The notes beneath the pieces were generated by a model, which was given only the letters and a program-made list of their open reading frames with translations, ran no database searches and was not told the DNA's origin. A stretch of 64,000 nucleotides of DNA, taken from positions 435,635,260-435,699,259 of the forward strand of contig NC_085140.1 in assembly GCF_024139115.2 (NCBI RefSeq), given 5' to 3'. Shown here one piece after another: positions 29,637 to 61,903 of the stretch. This DNA is from Armigeres subalbatus. Taxonomy: Eukaryota; Arthropoda; Insecta; Diptera; Culicidae. The position numbers were made by a program, and so were the translations under genes. Position 1 is the first letter of the stretch. Each line of letters starts with the position of its first letter.

Positions 29637-30316
29637 TTCCCCTTCTTCTCTCACAAAAAAGGAACAAAAAAATCCTTTAGCAAAGTCCTTTTCGTAAGAC
29701 GAAGTTGAACGTTGAACCTGTTTCATTTGAAAACTGAACTCCAAAATAAACTTGACTTAACCACGATTTTAAATTGCAGAAAACGTTGGTATCTAGTTGT
29801 TATGATATTGATCTCTCAAGACACGTTATAGATCGCAGCAATAATCTAAATAACTTATTCTGCCCAATTAGTCCAACAATCAGCCTCGTGTATAGTAACA
29901 CCATCAAGCTGACCTCCAACATGTCGATGTTAAACTAGCGATACCCCATTTTTAGATTTTTTTTGGTAACTAGTACTATTATCCAACAACTCCAAACTAA
30001 TAGCTTTGTGAAAGTGTTTTAACTTCATGAATTTTGGATATCTGATTCAACGGGAAATTCTGCTATGACTACTAAGTCAGTAAATCCCAAAATAAACTTT
30101 AAGATATGTAATCTATTTCGCTTTCCAAACATCTTTGTCGCATATGATAGTTCTGCATATCTCTCAGATTTCGTTAGAATAAGCAAAACTTGTGGTCTTA
30201 TGTACACTGTCAATTGTATAAATTTATGTTAACCAAAATCCATACTTCCCGGACTCACCCTGGGATTTTCTAGATTGTCAACCCTTTTTTCGGCAGTTTC
30301 TCAGGCAGTTCCTTTA

Positions 30317-31030
30317 CGGTTTTCCAAGCCACAATCCATTTTCCAGCGGTCTTCCCGACGCGCTTAGTGATTTTCCAAACCACAATCCATTTTCCAGCGG
30401 TCTCCCAGACGCGCTTTGTGATTTTCCAAACCACAATCCATTTTCCAGCGGTCATCCCGACGCGCTCTGTGATTTTCCAAACCACAATCCATTTTCCAGC
30501 GGTCTCCCAGACGCGCTTTGTGATTTTCCAAACCACAATCCATTTTCCAGCGGTCATCCCGACGCGCTCTGTGATTTTCCAAACCACAATCCATTTTCCA
30601 GCGGTCTCCCAGACGCGCTTTGTGATTTTCCAAACCACAATCCATTTTCCAGCGGTCATCCCGACGCGCTCTGTGATTTTCCAAACCACAATCCATTTTC
30701 CAGCGGTCTCCCAGACGCGTTTTGTGATTTTCCAAACCACAATCCATTTTCCAGCGGTCATCCCGACGCGATTTGTGATTTTCCAAACCACAATTCATTT
30801 TCCAGCGGTCTCCCAGACGCGTTTTGTGATTTTCCAAACCACAATCCATTTTCCAGCGGTCATCCCGACGCGCTTTGTGATTTTACAAACCACAATCCAT
30901 TTTCCAGCGGTCTCCCAGACGCGCTTTGTGATTTTCCAAACCACAATCCATTTTTCAGCGGTCATCCCGACGCGCTTTGTGATTTTACAAACCACAATCC
31001 ATTTTCCAGCGGCCTCCCAGACGCGCTTTG
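30317..31030. repeat. 51-bp minisatellite, 14 copies in a dimeric (102-bp) arrangement
   Basis: Fourteen head-to-tail 51-bp units with the core caaaccacaatccattttcc. Units alternate regularly between the type 'ggtctcccagacgcg' and the type 'ggtcatcccgacgcg', so the real period is 102 bp. Because 51 is divisible by three, frames stay open through the array on both strands and encode 17-residue repeats (for example IVVWKITKRVWETAGKW on -). This openness follows from the repeat and is not evidence of a protein. The outer units are the most diverged. Confidence 0.9.
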
Positions 31031-31156
31031 TTGAAATGGTTGTGATTCCTTTCCGTATTGGAAATTAAATACTGTATCTTTTCGCATATTAACCACTTGA
31101 GTTCAACTCACCTTTTGAAATCAGCGTCAGGATACAACCTGGTAGGATCGCCAAAA

Positions 31157-38669: not shown

Positions 38670-38974
38670 GACACGACTGCCCGACGTAAACTACGAAAAA
38701 TCTTATGGTGCAATAATAATTGCAACGTCATGTAAATATTAGGTTGTTATAGGGTAATTGATCCGATAGTCGTGGGTGTTCCTATAGTTGCGGTAGTGTA
38801 GTTTTTATCAAATACTAGTCGACCCGGCAGACGTTGTCCTGCATAGTAGGCGAAAATGCGCCTGAACTGCGAAATATCTATACGATTCTTAATTTTAGTT
38901 CTTCACGATTTACTCAACCTTACTCGTGATTTTCGCATGGGAAAATATCATATAAACCCCACCTATCATATAAA

Positions 38975-39020
38975 GACACTGAAGACGGCCTTACTGTTGA
39001 GGTCGAAATACGTATCTGTC
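38975..39020 (+). ncRNA. hammerhead-like motif in the one-armed copy
   Basis: GACA (stem I, 5' side), CTGAAGA, a GGCC/GGTC helix, GAAA, a very short TACGTA hairpin, TC and TGTC (stem I, 3' side) occur in the order of a hammerhead ribozyme. The expected cut would fall between 39016 and 39017. One extra C lies between the CTGAAGA core and helix II compared with the canonical fold, so activity is uncertain. Confidence 0.5.
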
Positions 39021-39114
39021 AAGATACAATTAAGTGGTGGAATTCAATGGGATTGTATAAACTCGTCTTATGACAGGTGAAAACATTCCACTTAAAAGTT
39101 CAAAATAATTTTCT
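38975..39114 (+). mobile_element. one-armed copy of the hairpin retroelement family
   Basis: It carries only the right arm and tail of the element at 40762-41035 (gacactgaagacggcc ... ataattttct). It is flanked by the 11-bp duplication tatcatataaa at 38964-38974 and 39115-39125, so it is a complete insertion event in its own right and not a later deletion. It starts exactly at the first base of the hammerhead-like motif. Truncation of one side with an intact tail is the expected result of target-primed reverse transcription. Confidence 0.75.
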
Positions 39115-39929
39115 TATCATATAAACCCGTCGGAAACGATAACTAACGTATCTGCTGAAGGAATGAAGAAAATCCACCCAGCCGTTTTCGAGTTATGCGG
39201 ATACGAACACAGACCATTTTATTTTTATTATATAGACTAGTCGACCCGGCAGACGTTGTCCTGCATAGTAGGCGAAAATGTCCGTTTTGAACTGCCCATA
39301 CGAATCTTAATTTTAGTGTTTCGCGATTTACTCAACCTTACTCATAATTTTTGCATGAGGAAATATCATATAAACCCGTCGGAAATGATAATGAACGTTT
39401 CCACTGAACGAATGAAGAAAATCCATCCAGCCGTTTTTGAGTTATGCGGATACGAACACAGACCATTTCATTTTTATTATATAGAAGATACGCAAAGAAC
39501 GCAGCAACCACCATTGTCTATCAATTAGTTGACCTGTCATTACGTGAAAGAGATGAAAACTGTTTTGGATTTTCTAAAAAATCGGTAAAATATCACTGAA
39601 ATACTGTAATTTATTCTCTGCCTTGTACCAATAGTTGCGGTAGTGTTCCCATAGTTTTGAGTCTCGTATGAAAACAATGGGATTCGCAACTATAGGAACA
39701 CGAATTAGAAAATATCGCAACTATTGGAACATTGCACCAATAATTGGAGGATTCATTTTAGGTAATAATGACAGGAGCTGCTGCCTTCGGAATACTTTCT
39801 ACTCAAAATATAAAAGAGGAGCTTTCGAATGCACAATTTAGGTAAGCGAAATAAACTATAGCTTCTGTGCATGCGAACAAACAGTGGTGGAACGTGCTTA
39901 GTTCCTCCACTATTGGGTCATTTACCCTA

Positions 39930-40750: not shown

Positions 40751-40818
40751 ATAAATTACCACTTGTCATAAGACGAGTTTGTACAATCCCATTGAATTCC
40801 ACCACTTAATTGAATCTT

Positions 40819-40864
40819 GACAGATACGTATTTCGACCTCAACAGTAAGGCCGTCTTCAGTGTC
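40819..40864 (-). ncRNA. hammerhead-like motif, left arm
   Basis: Mirror copy of the motif at 40894-40939, read on the - strand, with the same core, helix II and stem I. The predicted cleavage lies between 40823 and 40822. Confidence 0.5.
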
Positions 40865-40893
40865 TCGTACTTGACTCGACTCGACGAGTACGA

Positions 40894-40939
40894 GACACTG
40901 AAGACGGCCTTACTGTTGAGGTCGAAATACGTATCTGTC
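40894..40939 (+). ncRNA. hammerhead-like motif, right arm
   Basis: GACA-CTGAAGA-C-GGCC...GGTC-GAAA-TACGTA-TC-TGTC. Stem I is GACA/TGTC, helix II GGCC/GGTC, helix III minimal. The predicted cleavage lies between 40935 and 40936. The extra C before helix II is non-canonical. Confidence 0.5.
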
Positions 40940-41447
40940 AAGATACAATTAAGTGGTGGAATTCAATGGGATTGTACAAACTCGTCTTATGACAAGTGAA
41001 GACATTCCACTAAAAAGCTCAACATAATTTTCTTAATAAATTACCATTTTTTTCACAAGATTCAGACCATGTTGTTATTAATGATTTCGAATGCGCAGTT
41101 TGTCGGAGAGAGACGCTGCAATAATTTTTTTGCAGACAACGGCTGAAAATGTCTCCACTATGGTGACGTCTTCGTCAGTTTGGCTGTTGACGCCATCAAA
41201 TTTTCAGTCATGTCAGTCATTTCAAACGCTACATTAGTGTATAAAATTCTACAGCAACCACCGATGCTCGGACCGACACTGACGGAATGATTCCGCTACC
41301 GACGCCAAACGCTTTGTTCTATCAGAAAAGATTGTCTAAAATCAAATTTCTCTTGTTAATTTTCAGTACTCATTTGGAATCACAGAGAATTTTACAGTTC
41401 CTAGCGGTTGCACATTGGAAAAATTATCTCAACTTAACCTTCTTTCC

Positions 41448-44400
41448 GGCACGGCAAATGCTGGGTAAAGCGTACCATTGGTACTTCGCGTACCTGAAGG
41501 AATAAAATAGACCCCATCTCGCGGTCCTTAGCCTCTTACCCAGCAACTCCTATCCCTACCTCCCCGCGGTGCTGGCCGGGATACGAGCAACCTAAGGGAA
41601 GATCGGGTAACCATCCCCGGTGGGAACTATGGTCGTATGCTGACAGGGAAGGGGGGGTTTGCTCCTCTCCGGAGGTGCAAATCTTATTGAGCGTCTGTTC
41701 TCCATGTCAGGATCGGCTCACAACAGCGTCTGTTCTCCATGTTAGGGGCGGCTGATCATCGTCCGAGTGCCAGCGAGGGACTCTAAGTGAAACTGTGCAC
41801 CATGGTCCACCGGAAATAAGGAGGAATGGTCCTCCGGAAATTTAGGGGGTTTGGTGTCAGGCCCTGCAAGCCAGCCTTTAAAAATCATAAGCAACGAACA
41901 ATCAACAAGAGAGTACGGACCGGAACCATCGGTGAAGACCACTGCGACGAAAAGGGACTAGCGATTGGAAACTCGGTTCGTGGAACTGCAAATCTCTCAA
42001 CTTCATCGGGAGCACACGCATACTCGCCGATGTGCTCAAGGACCGTGGATTCGGCATCGTAGCGCTACAGGAGGTTTGTTGGAAGGGATCAATGGTGCGA
42101 ACGTTTAGAGGTAATCATACCATCTACCAGAGCTGCGGCAACATACACGAGCTGGGAACAGCTTTCATAGTGATGGGCGATATGCAAAGGCGCGTGATCG
42201 GGTGGTGGCCGATCAATGAAAGAATGTGCAAGTTGAGGATCAAAGGCCGGTTCTTCAACTTCAGCATAATCAACGTCCATAGCCCACACTCCGGAAGCAC
42301 TGATGATGATAAGGACGCATTCTACGCGCAGCTAGAACGTGAGTACGACAGCTGCCCAAGACACGACGTCAAAATCATCATAGGAGATTTGAACGCTCAG
42401 GTTGGCCAAGAGGAGGAGTTTAGACCGACCATTGGAAAGTTCAGCGCTCACCGGCTGACGAACGAAAACGGCCCACGACTAATTGATTTCGCCGCCTCCA
42501 AGAATATGGCCATTCGTAGCACCTACTTCCAACACAGCCTCCCGTATCGGTACACCTGGAGATCACCACTGCAGACAGAATCACAAATCGACCACGTTCT
42601 GATTGATGGACGGCACTTCTCCGACATTATCAACGTCAGAACATATCGTGGCGCTAACATCGACTCTGACCACTATCTGGTGATGGTTAAACTGCGCCCA
42701 AAACTATCCGTCATCAACAATGTTCGGTACCGACGACCGCCGCGGTATGACCTAGAGCGACTGAAGCAACCTGATGTCGCCACTGCATACGCGCAGCATC
42801 TCGAGGCAGCGTTGCCGGAAGAGGGTGAGCTCGATGGGGCCCCTCTTGAGGACTGCTGGAGTACAGTTAAAGCAGCCATTAACGACGCAGCGGAGAACAA
42901 CGTCGGGTATATGGGTCGAAGTCGACGGAACGATTGGTTCGACGAAGAGTGCAGACAGATTCTGGAGGAGAAGGACGCAGCGCGGGCGGTTGCGCTGCAG
43001 CAAGGTACCCGGCAGAACGTGGAACGTTATAGACGGAAGCGGAGACAGCAGACCCGCCTTTTTCAGGAGAAGAAACGCCGCCTGGAAGAAGCGGAGTGCG
43101 AGGAGATGGAACAGCTGTGCCGTTCTCAAGATACACGCAAGTTCTATCAGAAGCTCAACGCATCCCGCAAAGGCTTCGTGCCGCGAGCCGAAATGTGCCG
43201 GGATAAGGATGGGAGCATCTTGACGGACGAACGTGTGGTGATCGAAAGGTGGAAGCAGCACTACGAGGAACATCTGAATGGCGCTGAGAGTACAGGCAGT
43301 GAAAGTCAAGGCAGCGGAGGAGATGACTACGTCAGTTCAGCGGACGATGGAAGCCAACCAGCCCCCACCTTGAGGGAAGTTAAGGATGCCATTCAACAGC
43401 TAAAGACCAATAAAGCAGCTGGTAAGGATGGTATCGGAGCTGAGCTCATCAAGATGGGCCCGGAAAAGCTGGCCACTTGCCTGCACAAACTGATAGTCAG
43501 AATCTGGGAAACCGAACAGCTACCGGAGGAGTGGAAGGAAGGGGTTATATGCCCCATCTACAAGAAAGGCGACAAACTGGAGTGTGAGAACTTTCGAGCG
43601 ATCACCATCCTTAATGCCGCCTACAAAATGATATCCCAGATCATCTTCCGTCGTCTGTCACCATTAGTGAACGAGTTCGTGGGAAGTTATCAAGCCGGCT
43701 TCGTTGACGGCCGCTCGACAACGGACCAGATCTTTACTGTACGGCAAATCCTTCAAAAATGCCGTGAATACCAGGTCCCAACGCACCATCTGTTCGTTGA
43801 TTTCAAGGCGGCATACGACAGTATAGACCGCGTAGAGCTATGGAAAATTATGGACGAGAACAGCTTCCTGGGAAGCTTACCAGACTGATCAAAGCAACGG
43901 TGGATGGTGTGCAAAACTGTGTGAAGATTTCGGGCGAACACTCCAGTTCGTTCGAATCGCGCCGGGGACTAAGACAAGGTGATGGACTTTCGTGCCTGTT
44001 GTTCAACATTGCGCTAGAAGGTGTCATGCGGAGAGCCGGGTGTAACAGCCGGGGTACGATTTTCAACAGATCCAGTCAATTTATTTGCTTCGCGGATGAC
44101 ATGGACATTGTCGGCCGAACATTTGCAAAGGTGGCAGAACTGTACACCCGCCTGAAACGTAAAGCAACAAAAGTTGGACTGGTGGTGAATGCGTCAAAGA
44201 CAAAGTACATGCTTGTGGGCGGAACCGAGCGCGACAGGGCCCGCCTGGGAAGCAGTGTTACGATAGACGGGGATACCTTCGAGGTGGTCGAGGAATTCGT
44301 CTACCTCGGATCCTTGCTAACGGCTGACAACAACGTTAGTCGTGAAATACGAAGGCGCATCATCTGTGGAAGTCGGGCCTACTACGGGCTCCAGAAGAAA

Positions 44401-44914
44401 CTGCGGTCGAAAAGATTCGCCACCGCACCAAATGTGTCATGTACAAGACGTTAATAAGACCGGTAGTCCTCTACGGACATGAAACATGGACAATGCTCGA
44501 GGAGGACTTGCAAGCACTCGTATTCGAGAGACGGGTGCTTAGGACCATCTTTGGCGGTGTGCAAGAAGACGGTGTGTGGCGGCGAAGAATGAACCATGAG
44601 CTCGCCCAACTCTACGGCGAACCCAGTATCCAGAAGGTAGCTAAAGCCGGAAGGGTACGATGGGCAGGACATGTTGCAAGAATGCCGGACGGCAACCCTG
44701 CAAAGATGGTGTTCGCTTCCGATCCGGCAGGTACGAGACGGCGTGGAGCGCAGCGAGCGAGATGGGCAGACCAGGTGCAGAACGACTTGGCGAGCGTGGG
44801 GCGTATCCGAGGATGGAGAGATGCGGCCTCGAACCGTGCATTGTGGCGTCAAATTGTTGATTCAGCGTTATCTGTTTAGATGTTAACTAAATAAATGAAA
44901 TAAATGAATGAATG
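41448..44914 (+). mobile_element. near-full-length RTE-like LINE (family B, copy 1) with 12-bp TSD
   Basis: It starts ggcacggcaaatgctgggta, has a ~0.4-0.5-kb leader, one long ORF and a 3' tail of taaatgaa units. The perfect 12-bp duplication aaccttctttcc at 41436-41447 and 44915-44926 fixes both ends, giving 3467 bp. The same start in the copy at 53523 suggests this is the true 5' end. A single-ORF plan with APE endonuclease plus RT and a short-repeat tail fits the RTE clade (JAM1-like elements are known from Aedes), though the clade call is from memory. Frameshifts make it inactive. Confidence 0.85.
42032..44879 (+). pseudogene. LINE ORF: APE endonuclease and reverse transcriptase (copy 1)
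   Basis: The first frame (42032-43888) carries the endonuclease motifs ALQEVCW (about residue 11), IIGDLNAQVG (about 112), QIDHVLIDG (about 181) and DSDHYLVM (about 205). A coiled, charged linker follows, then RT motifs NKAAGKDGIGAELI, FRAITILNAAYKM, YQAGFVDGRSTTDQ and motif A FVDFKAAYDSID. A one-base loss near 43870 shifts the frame. The next frame has RGLRQGDGLSCLLFN and FADDMDIVG (the catalytic Asp pair). A second one-base loss in an A run (44410-44413) shifts it again to the C-terminal region ending at 44877-44879. The endonuclease N-terminus (WNCKSLN) lies in another frame upstream because of a small indel near 41880. Confidence 0.85.
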
Positions 44915-53522: not shown

Positions 53523-56500
53523 GGCACGGCAAATGCTGGGTAGAGCGTACCATCGGAACTTCGCGTACCTGAAGGAATAAAATAGACCCCATCTCGTGGT
53601 CCTTAGCCTCTTACCCAGCAACTCCTATACCTACCTCCTCGTGGTGCTGGCCGGGATACGAGCAACCTTAGGGAAGATCGGGTAACCAACCCCGGTGGTA
53701 AGTATGGTGATATGCTGACAGGGAAGGGGGGAGGGGTAGGCTCCTCTCCAGAGGTACAAATCTTACTGAGCGTCTGTTTTCCATGTCAGGATCGGCTCCC
53801 AATAGCGTCTGTTCACCATGTTAGAGGCGGCTGATCATCGTCCAATTGCCAGCGAGGGACTCTAAGTGAAACTGTGCACCATGCTCCACCGGGAATAAGG
53901 AGGAATGGTCCTCAGAAAATTTAGGGGGTTTGGTGTCATGCCCTGTAAGCCAGCTTATAAAAAAAGATACGCAACGAACAATCAACAAGAGAGTACGGAC
54001 CGGAACCTTCGGCGAAGACCACTGCAACGAAAAGGGACTAGCGATTGGAAACTCGGTTCGTGGAACTGCAAATCTCTCAACTTCATCGGGAGCACACGCA
54101 TACTCGCCGATGTGCTCAAGGACCGTGGATTCGGAATCGTAGCGCTGCAGGAGGTTTGTTGGAAGGGATCAATGGTGCGAACGTTTAGAGGTAATCATAC
54201 CATCTACCAGAGCTGCGGCAACACACACGAGCTGGGAACAGCTTTCATAGTGATGGGCGATATGCAAAGGCGCGTGATCGGGTGGTGACCGATCAACGAG
54301 AGAATGTGCAGGTTGAGGATCAAAGGCCAGTTCTTCAACTTCAGCATAATCAACGTTCATAGCCCACACTCCGGAAGCACTGATGATGATAAGGACGCAT
54401 TCTACGCGCAGCTGGATCGTGAGTACGATAGCTGCTCGAGCCACGACGTCAAAATCATCATAGGAGATTTGAACGCTCAGGTTGGCCAAGAGGAGGAGTT
54501 TAGACCGACTATTGGGAAGTTCAGCGCACACCGGCTGACGAACGAAAACGGCCTACGACTAATTGATTTCGCTGCCTCCAAGAATATGGCCATTCGCAGC
54601 ACCTACTTCCAACACAGCCTTCCGTATCGGTACACCTGGAGATCACCACTGCAGACAGAATCACAAATCGACCACGTTCTGATTGATGGACGGCACTTCT
54701 CCGACATTATCGACGTCAGAACATATCGTGGCGCTAACATCGACTCTGACCACTATCTGGTGATGGTTAAACTGCGCCCAAAACTATCCGTCATCAACAA
54801 TGTTCGGTACCGACGACCGCCGCGGTATGACCTAGAGCGACTGAAGCAACCTGATGTCGCCACTGCATACGCGCAGCATCTCGAGGCAGCGTTGCCGGAA
54901 GAGGGTGAGCTCGATGGGGCCCCTCTTGAGGACTGCTGGAATACAGTCAAAGCAGCCATTAACGACGCCGCGGAGAACAACGTCGGGTATATGGGTCGAA
55001 GTCGACGGAACGATTGGTTCGACGAAGAGTGCAGACAGATTCTGGAGGAGAAGGACGCAGCGTGGGCGGTTGTGCTGCAGTAAGGTACCCGGCAGAACGT
55101 GGAACGTTATAGACGGAAGCGGAGACATCAGACCCGCCTTTTTCAGGAGAAGAAACGCCGCCTGGAAGAAGCGGAGTGCGAGGAGATGGAACAGCTGTGC
55201 CGTTCTCAAGAAACACGCAAGTTCTACCAGAAGCTCAACGTATCTTGTAAAGGCTTCGTTCCGCGAGCCGAAATGTGCCGGGATAAGGATGGGAGCATCT
55301 TGACGGACAAACGTGTGGTGATCGAAAGGTGGAAGCAGCACTACGAGGAACATCTGAATAGCGCTGAGAGTACAGGCAGTGTAAGTCAAGGTAGCGGAGG
55401 AGTTGACTACGTCATTTCAGCGGACCATAGAAGCCAACCAGCCCCCACCCATCCAACAGCTAAAGACCAATAAAGCAGCTGGTAAGGATGGGATTGGAGC
55501 TGAGCTCATCAAGATGGGCCCGGAAAAGCTAGCCACTTGCCTGCACAAACTGATAGTCAGAATCTGGAACACTGAACAGCTACCGGATGAGTGGAAGGTA
55601 GGGGTTATATGTATGCCCCATCTACAAGAAAGGCGACAAGCTGGAGTGTGAGAACTTTCAAGCGATCACCATCCTTAATGCCGCCTACAAAGTGATATCC
55701 CAGATCATCTTCCGACGTCTGTCACCATTAGTGAATGAGTTCGAGAGAATTTATCAAGCCCGCTTCGTTGACAGCCGCTCGACAACGGATCAGATCTTTA
55801 CTGTACGGCAAATCCTTCAAAAATGTCGTGAGTACCAGGTCCCAACGCACCATCTGTTCATTGATTTCAAGGCTGCATACGACAGAATAAACTGTGTAGA
55901 GCTTTGGAAAATTATGGACGAGAACAGCTTCCCTGGGAAGCTTACCAGACTGATCAAAGCAATGGTGGATGGTGTGAAAAAAATTGTTTGAAGATTTCGG
56001 GCGAACACTCCAATTCTTTCGAATCGCGCCGGGGACTAAGACAAGGTGATGGACTTTCGTGCCTGTTGTTTAACATTGCGCTAGAAGGTGCCATGCGGAG
56101 AGCCGGGTGTAACAGCTGAGTACGATATACAACAGATCCAGTCAATTTATTTGTCTCGCGGATGACATGGACATTGTTGGTCAAACATTTGCAAAGGTGA
56201 CAGAACTGTATACCCGCCTGAAACGTGAAGCAACAAAAGTTGGACTGGTGGTGAATGCATCGAAGACAAACTACATGCTTGTGGGTGGAACCGAGCGCTA
56301 CATGGTCCGCCTGGGAATCAGTGTTATGATAGACGGGGATACCTTCGAGGTGGTCGAGGAATTCGTCTACCTCGGATCCATGCTAACGGCTGACAACAAC
56401 GTTAGTCGTGAAATACGAAAGCGCATCATCTGTGGAAGTCGGGCCTTCTACGGGCTCCAGAAGAAACTGCGGTCGAAAAGATTCGCCACCGCACCAAATG

Positions 56501-56940
56501 TGTCATTTACAAGACGCTTATAAGACCAGTTGTCCTCTACGGACATGAAACATGGACCATGCTCGAGGAGGACTTGCAAGCACTCGGAGTATTCGAGAGA
56601 CGGGTGCTTAGGACCATCTTTGGCGGTGTGCAAGAAGACGGTGTGTGGCGGCGAAGAATGAACCGTGAGCTCGCCCAGCTCTACGGCGAACCCAGTATCC
56701 AGAAGGTAGCTAAAGCCGGAAGGGTACGATGGGCAGAGCATGTTGCAAGAATGCCGGACAGCAACCTTGCAAAGATGGTGTTCGCTTCCGATCCGGCAGG
56801 TACGAGACGGCGTGGAGCGCAGCGAGCGAGATGGGAAGACCAGGTGCAAAACGACTTGGCGAGCGTGGGGCGTATCCAAGGATGGAATTGTTGATTCAGT
56901 GTTATCTGCTTAGATGTAAACTAAATAAATGAATGAAATG
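53523..56940 (+). mobile_element. near-full-length RTE-like LINE (family B, copy 2)
   Basis: Starts with the same ggcacggcaaatgctgggta as copy 1 and ends in a aaataaatgaatgaaatg tail, giving about 3.4 kb. Copies 1 and 2 are highly similar over the whole length. No exact target duplication was found. 'tatctcctcactt' before the element and 'tatctaatcactt' about 14 bp after its tail are similar, but this may be chance. A ~35-bp deletion near the C-terminus and the small indels listed under its ORF distinguish it from copy 1. Confidence 0.8.
53905..56894 (+). pseudogene. LINE ORF: APE endonuclease and reverse transcriptase (copy 2)
   Basis: This copy keeps the N-terminus in frame: LGSWNCKSLN (about residue 50), the usual beginning of an APE endonuclease, then LQEVCW. 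A TGG-to-TGA change stops it at 54286-54288. The next frame (54304-55083) has IIGDLNAQVG and QIDHVLIDG and is stopped by CAA-to-TAA at 55081-55083. About 20 bases are lost near 55449, and four bases are gained near 55611. RT motifs RSTTDQIF, FIDFKAAYDRIN, RGLRQGDGLSCLLFN and DDMDIVG survive in pieces. The A-run deletion at 56476-56479 is shared with copy 1. The last frame ends at 56894 after the C-terminal deletion. Inactive. Confidence 0.8.
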
Positions 56941-60752: not shown

Positions 60753-60975
60753 TGAAAAAATATAAAATTGTTAAATGATGGCTTGTTTTCACTTATTATA
60801 AGACTTGACTCCGAAAGTTTATTTTAGTACTTTGTTTGAGGAATTCTCCTTGTCCGCTCTGAAAGGTGAGGTTCTGACTTTATGAGAATATGTTAAATAA
60901 TATTAACATAATGAACCGTCTAAGACGAATTAAGTACTGTCCATTTAATTCCACCAGTCAATTTTCGTTATCTTT

Positions 60976-61018
60976 GCAGATACGTATTTCGACCACAACT
61001 GTGTGGTCGTCTTCAGTG
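60976..61018 (-). ncRNA. hammerhead-like motif, left arm
   Basis: Mirror copy on the - strand of the motif at 61064-61106, with identical core and helix II. The predicted cut is between 60979 and 60978. Confidence 0.5.
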
Positions 61019-61063
61019 TTTTGTACTTGACTCGACTGAAGACTGAAGAAACGACTGAAGAAA

Positions 61064-61106
61064 CACTGAAGACGACCACACAGTTGTGGTCGAAATACGT
61101 ATCTGC
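61064..61106 (+). ncRNA. hammerhead-like motif, right arm (8-bp helix II)
   Basis: CA-CTGAAGA followed by CGACCACA-CAGT-TGTGGTCG, AAA, TACGTA, TC, TGC. Helix II is longer and has changed on both sides relative to the copies at 38975 and 40894 while staying paired. Stem I is short (CA/TG). The predicted cut is between 61103 and 61104. Confidence 0.5.
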
Positions 61107-61206
61107 AAAGATAACGAAAATTAACTGGTGGAATTAAATGGACAGTACTTAATTCGTCTTAGACGGTTTAATACATTCCACTAAACGAGCTTAATATATT
61201 TTTCTG

Positions 61207-61903
61207 ATTAACATAATGGTTTATTTGTGAAACGAATTTCTTTAAAAATAAAATTGTTATGTTACGAAATTTAGTGAGTCGAGTATTGCGACACGTCTTT
61301 ATTGTTAGTGTTATTAGTGGAAGATAAGATTGCAACACTTTCAAATATCATTAGCTGCATTTTCCTATCGCTTAGATCACTACGTAACAATCATTAGGCA
61401 GTTTAACTAAATGCGCTTCTGTTGTTGCTGTTAACTACGAGTGATAAATAACAGTAGGGTCAGCGCAATTTGCTACTTGTACATCAACAAATGGTAATTG
61501 AATCCAATAAAAAATCATACCATCCAATTAGTTCATCATTACTTCGCATCGCATATAATTTTCCATAGTAAACTTCTCTTGCTGCTGCATCAAATTTGCA
61601 GACGGCACCCGCGAACAAATTAGAACCGTTGAATAATTGGCGCTGCTAAGTGGCCAAGAAATTAATTTCTCAATTACAGCGAGCCCCCCTGCTCCGCCTC
61701 ACTCCATGTCCGTGCCTAAGCTAATGAGTTGCTCCGCACATGGATCATCAATTCCAGCTGCGACTGGGCGCAAAAAATCGCTCATCATTTCTCCCAACGT
61801 GTGCTCACGCCCAGCACCTAGGCAAATACACTCATTGATCACCATTCACCGCCCCGTTTATTGAAAGCTCAACTCAACCTCTCCCATCGATTCTCATCCA
61901 CAG
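61207..61903 (+). other. probable intron end upstream of the exon
   Basis: Non-coding sequence that ends in a pyrimidine-rich run and a cag acceptor (61901-61903) in front of the exon. No repeats were recognised. It presumably belongs to a long intron that includes some of the elements to the left, but the position of the previous exon is unknown. Confidence 0.5.

Follow-up and report, generated by a model that had tools for sequence, protein, structure and literature searches.

Short hairpin inserts of Penelope-like anatomy with a hammerhead-like motif in the mosquito Armigeres subalbatus

The 64-kb window of the Armigeres subalbatus genome considered here, that is, the whole stretch of DNA that was analyzed, contains three short inserts of one family, designated A, B, and C. 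Each insert consists of one or two arms and a tail between target-site duplications (TSDs). Where two arms are present, they stand head-to-head and are nearly identical; the inner and outer ends of the arms coincide between copies, and a ribozyme motif lies uncut in all five arms. By this anatomy, and not by sequence, the inserts are taken as non-autonomous derivatives of the kind known for Penelope-like elements (PLEs). We consider it an even chance that these non-autonomous insertions were moved in trans and that the hairpins were formed by priming from both target strands at two fixed starts. More tentatively, the hairpins could be frozen products of two-strand target-primed reverse transcription, in which case head-to-head cDNAs would constitute a PLE-dependent, ORF-less class that reads out the start sites.

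The first hairpin, copy B, is a 274-bp insert at 40762-41035. Its head-to-head arms (40760-40871 and 40887-40998) are 112 nt long, 99% complementary, and spaced by 15 nt. The tail is present on the right side only (40997-41035, plus strand) and has a length of 39 nt, or 37 nt if two bases fitting both the arm and the TSD are assigned to the arm. The 11-bp TSD, ATAAATTACCA, is found at 40751-40761 and 41036-41046. The preliminary description of this locus, made from the sequence alone, had reported inverted arms of ~110 bp, a one-sided tail of ~37 nt, and an 11-bp direct repeat at both borders, and all three are confirmed. Counted from the TSD, the left arm (40762-40871) is inverted and has no tail, with the motif on the minus strand, while the right arm, on the plus strand, runs from 40887 to its inner end (40996, or up to 40998). 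In the unpaired stretch between the arms (40872-40886), the first part, to ~40881, corresponds by homology to the copy C left arm. Folded as RNA, copy B has a predicted energy of -206.7 kcal/mol, compared with a mean of -59.05 for shuffled sequences, and 0 of 200 shuffles were as good.

A BLAST search of the copy B insert against the window yielded two further family members. Copy C (60914-61206, 293 bp) is a second hairpin, ~75% identical to copy B. Its arms are 113 nt long, 97% complementary, and spaced by 39 nt; its tail is 38 nt (61169-61206, plus strand), and its 12-bp TSD, ATTAACATAATG, occupies 60902-60913 and 61207-61218. Again, the left arm (60914-61021) is inverted, lacks a tail, and has the motif on the minus strand, and the right arm (61061-61168) has it on the plus strand, with the predicted cleavage at 61103/61104. 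The inter-arm stretch (61022-61060) shows homology to the copy B left arm as far as ~61037 and continues with a duplicated GACTGAAGAAAC. At this junction (61041-61064), the copies of GACTGAAGAAAC are in tandem, which resembles slippage on CACTGAAGA, a stretch within the ribozyme motif.

Copy A (38975-39115, plus strand, 141 bp) is ~96% identical to copy B and comprises a single arm and a tail, without an inverted arm. It is flanked by the 10-bp repeat ATCATATAAA (38965-38974 and 39116-39125). The insert starts exactly at stem I of the ribozyme motif, which we take as a truncation (n = 1). Copy A interrupts the first of two adjacent copies of a host repeat that begins with ACTAGTCGACCCGGCAGACGTTGTCCTGC (38814-39488), and the neighboring paralogue without the insert represents an empty paralogous site (39222-39495, plus strand). 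The left junction of copy A (38940-38974) contains 19 extra bp, in which the target word recurs 18 bp upstream of the TSD. The extra bases are either an older local duplication or filler from the insertion.

Hence, inverted arms are present in two of the three copies, and the tail in all three. When A, B, and C are aligned, column 109 (up to 111) marks the start of the tail-less arm in copy B, and column 110 marks it in copy C; the range given for copy B is due to the two bases common to the arm and the TSD. The outer end falls at column 148 in A and C and at column 149 in B. The distance from the predicted cut to the outer end is 99, 100, and 103 nt in the three copies, and that to the inner start is 61-65 nt. 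The 3' ends of the family are thus of two kinds, inner and outer. On the other side, both left arms (in B and C) extend to the same upstream sequence, AGTCGAGTCAAGTAC, before the homology stops, and the 5' end of the family is perhaps fixed as well. Around the inner end, GGUGGAAU and AUUCCACU form a stem of 8 bp in all three copies, with a ninth pair in two copies that is broken in copy A. As the eight pairs are invariant, they are uninformative with respect to covariation. The TSDs of A, B, and C are 10, 11, and 12 bp long, respectively. Their AT contents, given in ascending order, are 82, 83, and 90%, compared with 59% in the window (n = 3).

The two arms of each hairpin agree closely, with one mismatch in 100 positions in copy B and three in 107 in copy C, two of the latter being past the inner end. 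In the arm body, 23 of the 25 variable columns distinguish B from C, with the two arms of each copy in agreement; the total number of variable columns is 32, and the seven located beyond the inner boundary, where the TSD is aligned against the tail, are excluded from this count. This means that the arms were made together and not inherited apart. Such agreement would fit either formation of the arms at insertion or conversion between them.

No ORFs were found in the inserts, in line with the original statement that they carry no protein. Since they have no ORF and are too short for a reverse transcriptase, they can be at most a non-autonomous derivative. We also considered a coding reading of the right arm with the tail and ruled it out, as none of the three frames is open throughout in A, B, or C. 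In the window, no GIY-YIG domain was found among the three ORFs, out of 37, that were scanned with Pfam; RVT_1 was present in three of them and Exo_endo_phos in one.

The anatomy of the inserts has parallels among characterized PLEs. A typical insertion of an Adineta PLE has an inverted pseudo-LTR (pLTR), an optional 31-bp tail on one side, and a 9-bp TSD (PMC3846280). Head-to-head pLTRs and a one-sided tail of ~31-40 bp are common to our hairpins, to Pen2a of Adineta vaga (PMC3846280), and to PAc of Anolis (PMC11167929). The Anolis PLE enzyme initiates reverse transcription (RT) at internal sites, and the genomic tail is equated by the authors with the interval separating two such starts (PMC11167929). 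Moreover, this enzyme acts on both target strands, cutting and extending each with the same start site, has unprocessed RNA as its dominant substrate, and uses AT-rich targets (PMC11167929). The PLE hammerhead is situated upstream of the RT starts; in PAc, the starts are 111-118 bp into the ORF and the cut is 26 bp in (PMC11167929), which places the starts 85-92 nt past the cut, compared with 61-65 and 99-103 nt in the inserts described here, a discrepancy in spacing that weighs against the match. Variable TSDs, AT-rich targets, and a hammerhead-like motif lying upstream of the proposed internal RT starts are features shared with PLEs of the Penelope/Poseidon type. Unlike such elements, our inserts have no ORF, no direct (tandem) pLTR, and a length of only 141-293 bp; in particular, the PAc ORF start, which overlaps the hammerhead, has no counterpart open frame in them. 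The Penelope-like reading of the preliminary description is thus upheld in anatomy, that is, by the head-to-head arms, the tail, the TSDs of 10-12 bp, the AT-rich targets, and the tailed solo arm.

These features could be produced as follows. An unseen PLE reverse transcriptase/endonuclease would move the family in trans, with a short uncleaved RNA of ~160 nt as the template. From a 5' end close to AGTCGAGTC, this RNA would contain the hammerhead motif, the conserved stem, and two fixed RT starts 37-39 nt apart, in that order. Copy A would result from ordinary target priming at the outer site, and it suggests that a single arm serves as a template. In the hairpins, both strands of a target with staggered nicks would prime cDNA, so that priming at the outer site would give an arm with the tail, and priming at the inner site on the opposite strand would give an arm without it. 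The two cDNA 3' ends would then join head-to-head, perhaps via a palindromic TCGA stretch, and filling of the stagger would create the duplication of 10-12 bp. The PLE enzyme, dual priming, the joining step, and the 5' end of the RNA are all parts of this scheme that we infer. The inner and outer ends coincide as two fixed internal RT starts would cause them to, with the coincidence of the inner start resting on two hairpins. The scheme leaves some bases unexplained, as a plain join at TCGA fails to account for all those at the junctions, and the 19 extra bp at the left junction of copy A are also outside it. Dual priming should, in addition, yield hairpins with two tails or none, and neither kind is seen among the two hairpins, B and C.

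The same kinship with PLEs is compatible with another origin of the inverted arm, namely self-priming, where the cDNA or an antisense transcript folds back and is copied to form a head-to-head palindrome. We regard this as possible but less likely than dual priming. Self-priming has been proposed as the origin of inverted PLE pLTRs, and fold-back was suggested for the head-to-head PLE repeats of Adineta vaga given palindromes at their junctions (PMC3846280). In our copies, the arms are near-identical within a copy and the junction of copy B is rich in palindromes, as fold-back would have it. Near-identical arms fit one shared template equally well and so are compatible with fold-back, and gene conversion between the arms could be a further source of the identity. 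However, fold-back alone does not predict that copies as diverged as B (columns 109-111) and C (column 110) share a fixed inner start. The origin of the inverted pLTRs of PLEs and of their optional tail becomes countable over the genome copies of such minimal inserts, as a pile-up at two sites would point to priming from both strands, and scatter would point to fold-back. In the in vitro work of 2024, the steps after the first cDNA synthesis were still to be validated (PMC11167929).

Two explanations outside PLEs have to be weighed as well. The type I-like arrangement of the motif within a short non-coding repeat is reminiscent of animal retrozymes, retroelements with a type I hammerhead that spread via circular RNA made by the ribozyme. 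Metazoan retrozymes are likewise short and non-autonomous; similar repeats are known from insects among others, with TSDs, when present, longer than 4 bp (PMC7229834). However, retrozymes as described there are tandem repeats with circular RNA, whereas the arms here are solo or inverted and span the predicted cut. No tandem ribozyme units occur in the three copies, all five arms are continuous across the predicted cleavage site, and the fixed 3' ends are 99-103 nt past it. Therefore, we do not retain the retrozyme-like alternative of the preliminary description and consider a retrozyme origin quite unlikely. Even less probable is a foldback or MITE-type DNA transposon, whose arms would be terminal inverted repeats moved by a transposase. 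The long inverted arms, the absence of a protein, and the presence of a TSD agree with such an element, but the tail is outside one arm and yet inside the TSD, the length of the TSD is not fixed (10, 11, 12 bp), and the one-arm copy A also has the tail and the TSD.

As the arms run across the predicted cut of the hammerhead-like motif, the copied RNA was uncut there, which means that templates of this family were copied across the ribozyme site without cleavage. The cut was also considered as the 5' border of the inserts and ruled out, since the arms begin upstream of it. In copy B, the order GACA-CTGAAGA-helix-GAAA-ATACGTAT-C-TGTC is observed in both arms. The right-arm motif is at 40894-40939 on the plus strand, with the predicted cleavage at 40935/40936 and no accepted Rfam match, and the left-arm motif is at 40864-40819 on the minus strand, with the predicted cleavage between 40823 and 40822. 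The preliminary description was correct about this order in each arm but overlooked an additional C, which separates CTGAAGA from stem II in each of the five family arms. The canonical hammerhead core has no extra base in this position.

A descriptor tolerating the extra base has five matches in the 64 kb, all of them in the five arms, while 200 first-order Markov simulations gave a mean of 0.09 matches and a maximum of two. This descriptor was composed after the motif had been seen; it permits the extra base and a 2-nt loop on stem III, and its minimum for stem I was lowered from 3 bp to 2 to accommodate copy C, in which this stem has 2. All five arms share the 14 nt GAAATACGTATCTG without a difference. 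In stem II, there are five substitutions between B and C, including one double change, and all seven pairs are kept; random placement of five substitutions over 18 positions keeps all seven pairs in 1.8% of cases, a null that ignores relatedness and concerns only two distinct sequences. On the other hand, stem I weakens to 2 bp in copy C.

Predicted folds are divided on the motif. The strict hammerhead fold has -4.1 kcal/mol in B and -3.2 in C, compared with -9.9 and -12.4 for the best folds. The extra C is paired with the G of GAAA in the folds predicted. The 50-nt motif of B has no advantage over shuffled sequences, 38 of 200 of which were as good (z -0.88), compared with 6 of 200 for C. The consensus fold of the three copies retains stem II but lacks hammerhead stems I and III; here, as well as in the fold of copy A, the bases surrounding the cut are paired with the downstream AAGATAC instead. 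For two B-type strands, a double hammerhead in trans is predicted, at -28.1 kcal/mol versus -9.9 for one strand. The C-type dimer, at -32.7 versus -12.4 kcal/mol, keeps stem III but not stem I. The evidence on the hammerhead assignment is mixed: the covariation of stem II and the double hammerhead as the best two-strand fold of B speak for it, and the extra C and the weaker strict fold speak against it.

The covariance-model check envisaged in the preliminary description did not bear the assignment out, as no hammerhead reached the Rfam cut-off anywhere in the window. Copy A, the 50-nt motif of which is identical to that of copy B, had the only hammerhead match reported, one to Hammerhead_1 that is in another register and scores 14.8 bits (cut-off 34, E 0.28). 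No hammerhead was reported for C, nor for B in a longer stretch; with E up to 10, the matches of B and C were mainly of miRNA type, which we attribute to the long perfect hairpin. Enforcing the right-arm hammerhead in the hairpin transcript changes its predicted energy from -206.7 to -118.9 kcal/mol, and so the ribozyme motif would be buried there. On these grounds, and because copy A suggests a single-arm template, we doubt the earlier proposal that ribozyme-bearing hairpins are the form in which the family survives. There are precedents for conditional activity: an Aedes hammerhead was assayed with no cleavage, and a dimer was suggested (PMC3088659), and the ribozyme of an Anolis PLE required its protein (PMC11167929). 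We interpret the motif as a hammerhead of the PLE type, possibly dependent on a dimer or a protein, or else degenerate.

Hammerheads were reportedly linked to PLEs by Cervera and de la Pena in 2014 and by Luense and others in 2017. PLE hammerheads, inverted pLTRs, and tails are already in print; a minimal hairpin that lacks an ORF and whose inner starts coincide may be new. Hammerhead repeats of Aedes have also been published (PMC3088659). The interspersed repeats of Aedes aegypti described there are, like our inserts, multicopy mosquito repeats with a hammerhead motif and share with them a palindromic stem III that permits a dimer. The words Penelope and inverted occur zero times in the main text of that paper. 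A literature search that covered few subscription journals found no description of such a minimal hairpin with coincident inner starts, no work linking hammerhead, Aedes aegypti, and Penelope together, and only PMC11167929 on inverted PLE products of target priming from both strands. Pattern scans of viral and genome contigs and a distant BLAST of phages also found nothing.

The window contains several other repeats. A retrotransposon is present in two copies (41448-44906 and 53523-56940), which are 93% identical, and the former contains RVT_1 and Exo_endo_phos domains. Near the 5' end of each copy, there is an HDV-like drz-agam-1 ribozyme above the Rfam cut-off (41537-41652 and 53612-53727). 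The reverse transcriptase ORF at 42032-43888 matches named proteins of Aedes albopictus at up to 86-87% over 72-92% of the length (best 120 of 325 matches). Among the matches listed, other mosquitoes are lower than Aedes albopictus, and there are closer matches at 98% and at 91%, the latter a fragment filed under Drosophila willistoni. Comparison of the window with itself also revealed a tandem array with offsets of ~51 and 102 bp (30312-31031). Finally, an inverted pair of ~480 bp with 94% identity is located at 659-1137 and 1357-1837.
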